Shown piece by piece: positions 1,023 to 8,420 of a DNA stretch of 64,000 bases. Position numbers and translations under genes: made by a program. Source of the stretch: Kitasatospora fiedleri (GTDB lineage: Bacteria > Actinomycetota > Actinomycetes > Streptomycetales > Streptomycetaceae). The first letter of the stretch is position 1; each line of letters begins with the position of its first letter. Location: positions 3,906,001 through 3,970,000 of the forward strand of contig NZ_OX419519.1 in NCBI RefSeq assembly GCF_948472415.1, read 5' to 3'. The notes below the pieces were generated by a model. That model had not been told where the DNA came from, ran no database searches, and saw nothing but the letters and a program-made list of their open reading frames with translations.

Positions 1023-1844
1023 ATGGCCGAGGAGCCCACCGACGCCGAACTGCTCGCCCGGCACACCGCGGGCGACCCGGACGCCTTCGGGCTGCTGGTG
1101 CACCGCCACCGGGACCGCCTGTGGGCCGTCGCGGTGCGCACCCTCGGCGACCGCGAGGAGGCCGCGGACGCGCTCCAGGACGCCCTGGTCTCCGCGTTCC
1201 GGGCCGCCGCCGGGTTCCAGGGCCGCTCGGCGGTCACCACCTGGCTGCACCGCATCGTGGTCAACGCCTGCCTGGACCGCGCCCGCCGCTGCGCGGTCCG
1301 CCGGGCCGAGTCGCTCGACCAGCGGCCGGACGGCACCGCGGAGCGCGCGCTGGGCGCCGCCGAGGGCGCGGAGAGCCACGCGGTGCGGGCCGAGACCCGC
1401 CGCGAGGTGGCGGACGCGCTGGCCGAACTGCCTGCCGAACAGCGGGCCGCCCTGGTGCTGGTCGACATGCAGGGCTACCCGGTGGCCGAGGCCGCCGAGG
1501 TGCTCGGCGTCCCGGTCGGCACCGTGAAGAGCCGCTGCGCCCGCGGCCGGGCCCGGCTGCTGCCGCTGCTGCGCCACCTCGGTCCGGGCACCGTTCCACG
1601 TGGAACCGAACCGGACGTCCGCCCCGCGGCCGTTCCACGGGGAGCGGCCGCCGCGTCCGCCGGTGTTCCACGTGGAACCGGCCCGGACCGGCGTCCTCCC
1701 GGTGTTCCACGTGGAACACCGGCGGGCCCGGACGGCGGCGGCACCGCCCCGCCCGGCCCCCGCGGCGGGAACCCGAACCCGCCCTCCCCCGTCCCATCCA
1801 CGGATTCCTCGCCCGCGCTGGAAGGAGATGCGACCCCGCGATGA
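1023..1844 (+). CDS. sigM: ECF-type RNA polymerase sigma factor, SigM-like, with parS-encoding tail
   Basis: The first 185 residues are a standard group IV sigma factor. Region 2 is near residues 20-85 (HRHRDRLWAVAVRTLGDREE, then ALQDALVSAF). Region 4 is near residues 125-180 (ADALAELPAEQRAALVLVD, GYPVAEAAEVLGVPVGTVKSR). It would direct RNA polymerase to a small regulon and be held off by the anti-sigma factor encoded next, whose ATG overlaps this stop codon (ATGA at 1841-1844). A GGAGG-type ribosome site precedes the ATG. The oddity is a tail of about 85 residues, rich in Pro, Gly and Arg, containing VPRGT three times and VPRGA once. These come from parS-like DNA palindromes read in frame. 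The family name rests on motifs and on its place upstream of trxBA. Confidence 0.88.
   Translation: MAEEPTDAELLARHTAGDPDAFGLLVHRHRDRLWAVAVRTLGDREEAADALQDALVSAFRAAAGFQGRSAVTTWLHRIVVNACLDRARRCAVRRAESLDQRPDGTAERALGAAEGAESHAVRAETRREVADALAELPAEQRAALVLVDMQGYPVAEAAEVLGVPVGTVKSRCARGRARLLPLLRHLGPGTVPRGTEPDVRPAAVPRGAAAASAGVPRGTGPDRRPPGVPRGTPAGPDGGGTAPPGPRGGNPNPPSPVPSTDSSPALEGDATPR
1593..1717. promoter_or_regulatory. parS: Cluster of three parS sites plus one degenerate copy inside sigM
   Basis: Perfect 14-bp palindromes GTTCCACGTGGAAC lie at 1593-1606, 1665-1678 and 1704-1717. A decayed copy, GTTCCACGGGGAGC, is at 1632-1645. The spacings are 39, 33 and 39 bp, all multiples of three, so each copy encodes Val-Pro-Arg-Gly in the sigma factor tail. 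The standard parS core is GTTTCACGTGAAAC. A T-to-C change at the fourth position of one half-site occurs in natural parS sites of other bacteria, so ParB binding is likely but not shown here. Confidence 0.75.
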
Positions 1845-2794
1845 CGCCGCACCCGCCTTCCGAGCACCCCGACCCGGACGCCCTCGCCGACCTCGCCGAG
1901 GACCTGCTGCCGCCCGAGCGGGCCGCCGCGCTGCACGCCCACCTGGCCCACTGCCCGTCCTGCGCCGAGGACTTCGCGGCCCTGTGCGGCCTCCCCGCGC
2001 TGCTGGCGGACGCCCCCGCCCCCGCCCTGCCGCCGGACGTCGCGGACCGGCTGACGGCCGCCCTGGCCGCCGAGTCCGCCGCCCGCACCGAGCGCCACCC
2101 GCAGCCGCCCGCACCGGCCGTCCCCAACGCCCCCGCCGTCCGCACCGCTTCCGCCCCGCCGCGCACCGCCGCCCCGGCCGGCTCCCCGTCCGGTGCCACC
2201 GGCCCCGGCCGCCCGGCCCGCCGCCGCCGTCGCGGCGCCCGGCTGCTGCTCGCGACCGCGGCCGTCGCGGTGGCGGCGCTCGCCGTCGGCCTGGGCGGCT
2301 CGCTGCTGGGCCAGGACACGGGCCGGCAGGACAGCGCCGCCAGCCGTTCCACCGCCGGCCGTTCCACCGCGGCCGACAGCCCGGCCCTCGCCGACGGCTC
2401 CCGGCCGACCAACACCGCCGGGACGGCCGGCACCACCGGCACCACCGCGCCCCAGCAGGTCGCCCCGGGCGGCAGCGGTGCGGAGGACGGTCCGGAGTTC
2501 ACCGCCGACCGGCTGCCCGCCCAGGTCCGGCAGCTGCTGGAGGGCAGGGCACCGCACCAGCTCGGCCAGGCCACCTCCGACGGACCGGCCGCGGCCCCGT
2601 CCTGCGCGCTGGAGGCCGCCGGGCACCCCGGCGAGCGGCCCGCAGCCACCGGCCCGGGCCGCTACCAGGGGCAGCCGGTGCTGGCCCTGGTGTTCCGCCC
2701 GCCCGGCGGCGGCGGGCCGCTGGACGTCTACCTGGCCACCCCGGACTGCCCCGGATCGACGATCCTGCTGCACAGCTCTGTCCCGGCCCCCTGA
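1841..2794 (+). CDS. Zinc-binding anti-sigma factor for the adjacent ECF sigma factor
   Basis: The ATG overlaps the sigM stop codon and is preceded by GAAGGAG, indicating translational coupling. The N-terminus carries the zinc anti-sigma (ZAS) motif LHAHLAHCPSC, an H-x3-C-x2-C arrangement near residues 32-43. Such domains wrap around and inhibit ECF sigma factors. A single membrane helix follows an RRRRR stretch (about residues 125-155). The C-terminal 150 residues, predicted to be outside the cell, are of low complexity and end with a small folded region containing two cysteines. The protein most likely holds the SigM-like factor at the membrane until a surface signal arrives. The signal is not evident from sequence. 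Confidence 0.85.
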   Translation: MTPHPPSEHPDPDALADLAEDLLPPERAAALHAHLAHCPSCAEDFAALCGLPALLADAPAPALPPDVADRLTAALAAESAARTERHPQPPAPAVPNAPAVRTASAPPRTAAPAGSPSGATGPGRPARRRRRGARLLLATAAVAVAALAVGLGGSLLGQDTGRQDSAASRSTAGRSTAADSPALADGSRPTNTAGTAGTTGTTAPQQVAPGGSGAEDGPEFTADRLPAQVRQLLEGRAPHQLGQATSDGPAAAPSCALEAAGHPGERPAATGPGRYQGQPVLALVFRPPGGGGPLDVYLATPDCPGSTILLHSSVPAP

Positions 2795-5160: not shown

Positions 5161-5194
5161 ACGGGTGCACGTTTCACGTGAAACATGCACCCGT
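5161..5194. promoter_or_regulatory. parS: parS site embedded in a 34-bp palindrome
   Basis: The canonical core GTTTCACGTGAAAC is at 5171-5184. Its flanks are also inverted repeats (ACGGGTGCA at 5161-5169 and TGCACCCGT at 5186-5194), giving a 34-bp palindrome with one mismatched pair. It begins 24 bases past the parB stop and lies before the acetyltransferase start, so it may serve both as a ParB loading site and as a transcript hairpin for parAB. Confidence 0.88.
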
Positions 5195-7284: not shown

Positions 7285-7298
7285 GTTTCACGTGAAAC
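7285..7298. promoter_or_regulatory. parS: parS site at the 5' end of parA
   Basis: A perfect canonical GTTTCACGTGAAAC, 10 bases upstream of the chosen parA ATG. ParB bound here would sit on the parAB leader, and possibly within an extended parA coding region. Confidence 0.93.
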
Positions 7299-7381: not shown

Positions 7382-7395
7382 GTTTCACGTGAAAC
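7382..7395. promoter_or_regulatory. parS: parS site upstream of parA
   Basis: A second perfect GTTTCACGTGAAAC, 97 bp from the site at 7285 in the rsmG-parA interval (7275-7583). That interval otherwise holds a hairpin after rsmG and a short GC-rich repeat. Confidence 0.93.
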
Positions 7396-7583: not shown

Positions 7584-8360
7584 TCAGCGCCGCCCGCGGC
7601 TCCCGCCGCGCCGCCCGGTGCTCTCGCCGCCCTTGCCGCCGCGTCCGGCCCGGGCCGCCCTGGCCCGCCGGGTGGCCGCCTTGACGCCGCCGGGGCTCTC
7701 CCCCGCCTCCACCCGAACCACCCGGGTCGGAGTCACCAGCACGCCCTCGCCGACCCCGATCACCGACCACTTCACCGCGCCGAGCCGGGCCAGCGCCGCC
7801 CGCGACTCCGCCAGCTCCTGCTCGGCGGTGTCGCCCTTCAGCGCCAGCATCTGGCCGTAGGGCCGCAGCAGCGGCATGCCCCAGCCGGCCAGTCGGTCCA
7901 GCGGCGCGACCGCGCGGGCGGTCACCACGTCCACCGCCAGCTTGCCGATCGTCTCCTCGGCCCGGCCTCGCAGCACCGTGACGTTCTCCAGACCGAGCTC
8001 GCGCACCACCTCCTCCAGGAAGGTGGTGCGCCGCAGCAGCGGTTCCAGCAGGGTCACCGACACGTCCGGCCGGGCCAGCGCCACCGGGATGCCCGGCAGC
8101 CCGGCGCCCGAGCCGACGTCGCACAGCGAGACCTCGGCGGGCAGCAGCTCGGCCAGCACCGCGCAGTTGAGCACGTGCCGGTCCCACAGCCGGGGCACCT
8201 CGCGCGGACCGATCAGCCCGCGCTGCACCCCTGCGGTCGCCAGCAGCTCGGTGTAGCGCACGGCCAGCGGCAGCCGATCGCCGAAGATCCGTCCCGCCGC
8301 CTCCGGTGCCTGACCCGGCCCCTCCAGCGGCGCCTCGGACTCCGTGCCGTCCCTGTCCAT
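7584..8360 (-). CDS. rsmG: 16S rRNA (guanine-N7)-methyltransferase RsmG (GidB)
   Basis: This 258-residue SAM-dependent enzyme methylates G527 (E. coli numbering) of 16S rRNA; its loss gives low-level streptomycin resistance in Streptomyces. The SAM motif is CDVGSGAGLPGIP, and the partner motif TARAVAPLDRL is also visible. The C-terminal 40 residues are a basic Arg/Gly-rich tail longer than in E. coli. I chose the ATG at 8360 because GGAGAGG precedes it; the frame could extend to 8405 without a good ribosome site. It lies between jag and parA, as in most bacteria. Confidence 0.95.
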   Translation of the reverse strand: MDRDGTESEAPLEGPGQAPEAAGRIFGDRLPLAVRYTELLATAGVQRGLIGPREVPRLWDRHVLNCAVLAELLPAEVSLCDVGSGAGLPGIPVALARPDVSVTLLEPLLRRTTFLEEVVRELGLENVTVLRGRAEETIGKLAVDVVTARAVAPLDRLAGWGMPLLRPYGQMLALKGDTAEQELAESRAALARLGAVKWSVIGVGEGVLVTPTRVVRVEAGESPGGVKAATRRARAARAGRGGKGGESTGRRGGSRGRR

Positions 8361-8406
8361 CTCTGCCTCTCCGCTCACCGTCGAATCCACCCGCCCTACC
8401 AGCACT

Positions 8407-8420
8407 GTTCCACGTGAAAC
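8407..8420. promoter_or_regulatory. parS: parS site between jag and rsmG
   Basis: GTTCCACGTGAAAC is a natural asymmetric variant of parS (one half-site has C instead of T). It lies 47 bases upstream of the chosen rsmG start. Confidence 0.85.

Follow-up and report, generated by a model that had tools for sequence, protein, structure and literature searches.

The 64,000-nucleotide stretch of DNA analysed here (the window; positions 3,906,001-3,970,000 of an 8.07-Mb genome) encodes a SigM-type ECF sigma factor whose 3' end carries an array of 14-bp palindromes; judged by genomic distribution, reading frame, conservation and codon choice, these palindromes are parS-type sites. We consider it very likely that the array consists of ParB-loading sites of the chromosomal ParABS system, kept by DNA-level selection within an expendable coding stretch. 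Most sampled Streptomycetaceae would thus have retained centromere sites in translated, unconserved protein segments, in either partner gene depending on lineage and always in one frame, a clean natural example of selection on DNA shaping the tail of a protein.

An in-frame array in the tail of sigM

The sigM product matches the NCBIfam SigM equivalog NF007225 at 266.4 bits (cut-off 190), and Pfam recognises its regions 2 and 4, leaving the final 83 residues without a match. As stated in the preliminary description, the segment beyond region 4 holds three perfect palindromes and one decayed copy, whose starts lie 39, 33 and 39 bp apart and which are all read in frame 0 as VPRG (Table 1). At up to three mismatches, the window contains 11 matches to the palindrome, against 2.58 expected and a maximum of 7 in 100 shuffles. 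The array sequence GTTCCACGTGGAAC differs from the canonical parS GTTTCACGTGAAAC at two symmetric positions (T4C and A11G) and keeps the palindrome.

Table 1. Features of the window at and around the sigM operon.
Feature	Position	Strand	Remarks
sigM, ECF sigma factor, 273 aa	1023..1844	+	Conserved regions 2-4, aa ~1-186; tail, aa 187-273, unconserved
parS copy 1, GTTCCACGTGGAAC, exact	1593..1606	.	Frame 0, VPRGT
Decayed parS copy 2, GTTCCACGGGGAGC, 2 mismatches	1632..1645	.	Frame 0, VPRG
parS copy 3, GTTCCACGTGGAAC, exact	1665..1678	.	Frame 0, VPRG
parS copy 4, GTTCCACGTGGAAC, exact	1704..1717	.	Frame 0, VPRG
GGAAC-N17-CGTC, probable SigM-type ECF promoter inside sigM	1768..1793	+	Upstream of the anti-sigma gene
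Anti-sigma factor gene	1841..2794	+	ATG 1841 chosen by inspection, overlaps the sigM stop; counterpart holds parS in Streptomyces
Canonical parS, GTTTCACGTGAAAC	5171..5184	.	5' end of a GNAT ORF (VSRET), or just upstream if its start is later
parB, 355 aa	5218..6285	-	Named by inspection
Canonical parS	7285..7298	.	In the parA ORF, 5' part (assigned by inspection; uncertain start codon)
Canonical parS	7382..7395	.	Upstream of, or within the 5' part of, the parA ORF
Mixed-type parS, GTTCCACGTGAAAC	8407..8420	.	Just upstream of ORF 7584-8405, taken for rsmG

The tail had been described as unconserved beyond region 4, which holds for the spacers between the palindromes but not for the last ~75 bp of the gene; these are constrained, and comprise a conserved GGAAC-N17-CGTC element (see below) and the approach to the start of the anti-sigma gene. 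The product of the latter gives zf-HC2 and anti-sigma profile matches that are weak and under their cut-offs. In AlphaFold models, residues 187-273 of the sigma factor have no secondary structure (block pLDDT 37-53), and the segment of an anti-sigma protein whose gene holds five parS sites (L078; residues 87-227) is modelled at low confidence without helix or strand; the underlying alignments are shallow, with 43 and 33 sequences, respectively. As region 4 of the sigma factor likewise reaches modest confidence (blocks 46-78), low pLDDT in the tail is in itself no proof of disorder. The sigM tail is probably disordered, a view with which the models agree without proving it.

The palindromes belong to the chromosomal parS set

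Exact matches to the degenerate palindrome GTTYCACGTGRAAC occur 12 times in the genome, all of them inside the 153 kb that hold oriC and parAB, as is characteristic of chromosomal parS sites, and the reversed-pattern control gave none. Seven of these sites are of the CC/GG type (GTTCCACGTGGAAC), two are mixed and three are of the TT/AA type (GTTTCACGTGAAAC). The array lies ~12 kb from the DnaA boxes marking oriC (four of the window's five exact boxes fall at 13.9-14.5 kb). Such cores are not exclusive to ParB, since CACGTG also serves other factors, and the palindrome could in principle be the operator of another CACGTG-binding protein. This reading is highly improbable, given that every one of the 12 exact copies in the genome lies in the cluster around oriC and parAB and that relatives have the canonical parS variant in the same region of the gene. 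The claim of a parS array within coding DNA thus stands as regards the type of site, borne out by genome-wide clustering, and its location outside the conserved sigma domains; what does not stand is that the embedding is peculiar to one gene. Two further sites of this genome were observed: a GTTCCACGTGGAAC copy (G000:C1:3982094; L174, 2001-2014) lies in frame, read as VPRGT, in the apparent linker of an ORF that by inspection encodes an E2-type acyltransferase, and another parS lies just past the stop of an ORF taken for pyrE.

All 61 Kitasatospora genomes searched contain parS-type sites, at 8-16 each. The TT/AA form is present in 70 of 70 genomes of the genus and the CC/GG form in 18 of 70; each of the 12 genomes closest to the window has 6-9 CC/GG copies. 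The CC/GG form of the array therefore reflects a shift that affects the whole genome in this clade and is not special to sigM. Outside the nearest clade, CC/GG sites number five in G020, three in G028 and four in G001. The reversed control gave eight matches in G007 and seven in G047, against at most two in the others of the 61, which suggests an unrelated repeated palindrome in those two genomes.

The ParB proteins of the genus differ at position 207, within a GKSR motif, which is K in the 12 genomes nearest the window and R in the 45 other alignable genus loci (three loci, L115, L117 and L118, gave no ParB match). In Caulobacter ParB, G170, K171, S172 and R173 are reported to contact parS (PMC7383237), and the 207 region of the window's ParB matches these residues by motif, not by structure. 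K207 coincides with the shift to CC/GG parS, but co-evolution of the two is not claimed, as K207 is confined to one clade and R207 too is found together with CC/GG sites, namely in G020 and G028 (L126 and L132).

Conservation within the Streptomycetaceae

The named close relatives at the locus are Kitasatospora phosalacinea strains, whose sigma cores are 96-97% identical to that of the window. Of 70 genus genomes, 69 yielded an orthologue of sigM, the exception (G036) being a 1,260-contig assembly with a weak match only. Comparing the 3' end of sigM over Streptomyces and Kitasatospora, as the preliminary description had proposed, shows that all 69 genus orthologues have exact parS sites in the sigM tail, whereas 71 of the 76 loci from the rest of the family have them in the anti-sigma gene that overlaps sigM. 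The Kitasatospora tails hold one to four sites each (41 with one, 17 with two, five with three and six with four), and all 114 are in frame 0, 1-60 codons beyond the aligned core. Of the 76 other loci (Streptomyces, Actinacidiphila, Wenjunlia and Streptacidiphilus; best matches to the window protein rather than a random draw, with L001, L002, L003 and L005 excluded as duplicates of genus genomes), these 71 hold one to five sites each, 92 of 92 being in frame 0 of the anti-sigma gene at codons 87-209. The anti-sigma genes richest in parS are those of L068 and L078, with five sites each, and L065, with four.

Among the same 76 loci, Streptacidiphilus carbonis has one site in sigM, and four loci have no exact site, one of which (L044) ends at a contig end; L073 has a one-mismatch site only, and neither Wenjunlia (L052) nor Streptacidiphilus fuscans (L060) has a site at up to two mismatches over the 1.8 kb scanned. 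None of the genus loci or the 76 family loci has exact sites in sigM and the anti-sigma gene at once. In a separate search, which may overlap the 76, seven of seven genomes of a second family genus had an exact site after sigM. On a sigM tree with bootstrap support incompletely settled, the sigM-tail group needs two changes and the three labels jointly four. These loci share ancestry and are thus not independent tests.

Beyond the family, parS was found at none of 61 sigM loci from other families of the class, of which 22 were scanned at up to one mismatch over 1.25-1.44 kb past the sigM stop and 39 for exact sites over 367-1009 bp past the stop (at least 500 bp in 37). These 61 come from the 88 non-family genomes with a sigM match, 26 being outside the sample and one being cut by a contig end.

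Selection on DNA rather than on the peptide

The same peptide recurs in sigM tails and anti-sigma linkers, so that VPRG/VSRE could be a functional motif of the sigma tail with the palindromic DNA as its by-product. Other codons are, however, almost never used for it. The preliminary description had named relatives with the same protein repeats and no palindromes as the observation that would count against it, and the outcome favours parS: exact parS encodes 114 of the 120 V[PS]R[GE] peptides found in the sigM tails of the genus, parS with one or two mismatches encodes five and unrelated DNA one. Moreover, the codons concerned are rare: under the codon usage of the window (GC3 of 0.96 over 23 ORFs), VPRG would be written as GTT CCA CGT GGA with a probability of ~1.2e-7 per motif. 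Around oriC, the same DNA is also present within other genes and between genes. That the repeats exist for the sake of the protein is rejected, because synonymous versions are nearly absent, and we regard its probability as minimal. The conservation expected of chromosomal parS, as DNA, is instead seen at 69 of 69 genus loci.

In this reading the protein is passive. All 66 spacings (45 of 45 in the genus and 21 of 21 in the rest of the family) are multiples of three, as a shared frame requires, so that the reading frame is conserved as well. Helical phasing of the array was rejected, as genus spacings range from 27 to 114 bp and have divisibility by three alone in common. Copies of the array would accordingly be gained and lost in multiples of three bases, and the sequence GTT YCA CGT GRA AC, read as V[SP]R[EG], would simply be tolerated by the tail. 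This tolerance would be explained by a segment that is unconserved, probably disordered and already holding regulatory DNA. Since most sampled relatives keep their sites within the same gene pair, the unconserved tail seems to be a place for storing DNA signals rather than a working part of the protein.

How many of the copies are under selection is a separate matter. Copy number varies from one to five, a single site is present at 41 of the 69 genus loci and at 58 of the 71 loci with anti-sigma sites, and decayed copies are found in the window, in L082 (another genome of the same species, in which the counterpart of copy 2 is changed in the opposite half) and in L085. With so many single-site loci in the genus and one of four copies decayed in the window, extra copies are not strictly needed. 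In addition, a 33-bp tandem unit is still recognisable in L078 by Tandem Repeats Finder. The array could thus be partly neutral, with one useful parS in the operon and extra copies drifting as tandem duplicates. Against this, in the 12 nearest genomes (sigma cores 91-98% identical) the spacers have diverged widely in length and sequence while most palindromes are exact, which suggests selection on most copies, and Tandem Repeats Finder no longer detects the unit in the window. We therefore give partial neutrality a low probability.

A conserved promoter-like element beside the array

ECF promoters have the consensus -35 GGAAC and -10 CGTC. Both boxes are present towards the 3' end of sigM, ahead of the anti-sigma gene, at 206 of 206 loci across the class (the window sigM, L081-L149, L004, L006-L080, L182-L203 and L224-L263 minus L226), and their spacer is always 17 although 15-18 were allowed. 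Specifically, GGAAC-N17-CGTC was found at 69 of 69 genus, 76 of 76 family and 22 of 22 non-family loci, and then at 37 of 39 more non-family loci, the two initial misses having the element just beyond the searched zone with the same spacing. Shuffled-segment controls gave 11 of 3450 and 6 of 1950, and on average random synonymous recoding would leave the two boxes intact in 5-12% of cases. At five outgroup loci the element lies in another reading frame and at one it straddles the sigM stop, which indicates that the DNA itself is conserved. A slightly longer version, GGAACC-N16-CGTCC, has 18 matches genome-wide (six for the reversed control), so that the motif is not unique to sigM.

We take GGAAC-N17-CGTC to resemble the SigM promoter consensus of M. 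tuberculosis. Judged by sequence and placement, the element probably serves the anti-sigma gene as an internal, SigM-dependent promoter. Literature listings yielded no description of a promoter inside sigM, C. glutamicum work aside, and in PMC9205884 the terms SigM, SCO3892, SCO3891 and GGAAC are absent as whole words. The array copies, which themselves contain GGAAC, were considered as -35 boxes in their own right and rejected, since by eye no exact window copy has CGTC 16-18 bases downstream.

Proposed ParB loading and possible effects on the operon

ParBs of several species bind sequences with GTTCCAC and GTTTCAC (PMC7022226), and in S. venezuelae ParB spreads 2.5-3 kb from parS sites (PMC12511625). 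In the proposed mechanism, ParB-CTP would load at the palindromes of the array and slide into flanking DNA, and the array-loaded ParB, spread over a few kilobases, would merge with the ParB domain of the other origin-proximal sites. The array would thus serve chromosome segregation.

The array might also regulate its operon, with ParB, whether loaded on the array or spreading from it, repressing sigM, its anti-sigma partner or the intervening promoter, and so linking the state of segregation to a stress and differentiation sigma factor. In this regard, the last parS of each genus locus lies close upstream of the GGAAC box (8-143 bp, median 35), with 114 of 114 sites being 5' of it. Pseudomonas ParB is reported to repress genes beside two intergenic parS, its overproduction silencing most genes near parS1-4 (PMC7022226), and SigT, the orthologue in S. 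coelicolor, is reported to govern differentiation (PMC7593790). However, at the other family loci 92 of 93 sites are 3' of the box, the first being 308-698 bp away; the two lineages thus have parS on different sides of the likely anti-sigma promoter, and this difference implies that there is no fixed regulatory geometry. Likewise, the transcript effects under review are small in several species: genes beside parS are described as unaffected in B. subtilis and S. pneumoniae, three genes are listed as changed within the ParB region in V. cholerae (PMC7022226), and the S. lividans orthologue sigT is reported to be transcribed highly and uniformly throughout growth (PMC6295645). On balance, such regulation appears unlikely. 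Silencing of the sigM/anti-sigma operon by ParB spreading, as raised in the preliminary description, would be possible but is unsupported.

A broader form of this idea, to which we assign a slightly smaller chance, would make the C-terminal extension of SigM a translated cis-regulatory platform, combining a class-wide promoter for its own anti-sigma gene with centromere sites added in the Streptomycetaceae, where ParB occupancy tunes SigM/anti-sigma output. If this were true, the state of chromosome segregation would feed into a developmental sigma factor. Any effect of ParB loading within the operon on transcription is directly testable, because synonymous recoding removes the sites and leaves the protein unaltered. 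ParB loading in the service of segregation remains the preferred reading.

Comparison with known systems

The S. coelicolor SigT-RstA pair presumably has the gene order SCO3892-SCO3891. It is the apparent orthologue of the sigma/anti-sigma pair in the window (names from PMC5537264), and differs in that the sampled Streptomyces loci, S. coelicolor not being among them, hold parS in the anti-sigma gene and not in the sigma tail. Among the open-access papers listed, none describes parS in sigM/sigT or its anti-sigma gene in its title or the start of its abstract; an earlier mention is possible in Jakimowicz 2002, the primary paper on parS of S. coelicolor.

The chromosomal parS clusters of Streptomyces resemble the present case in the 14-bp palindrome and in the many ParB-bound sites around oriC, with 16-17 parS sites bound by ParB in S. 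venezuelae (PMC4852455, PMC12511625). In contrast to those clusters, 28 of 69 genus loci have two to four exact sites in a short coding stretch of a sigma factor, and the CC/GG form is in the majority in this genome (7 of 12 exact sites). Centromere sites in coding DNA near oriC are also known from gidB of Thermus (PMC4409726) and from mycobacterial parA (PMC2346475). No arrays are described in the accessible parts of those two reports, whereas here the sites are in frame, often form arrays, change partner gene by lineage and occupy unconserved segments. Thus, parS within genes is already known, and what is new is that most sampled members of the family have it in a fixed frame within a single operon, together with the array form at some loci and the lineage-dependent choice of partner gene.
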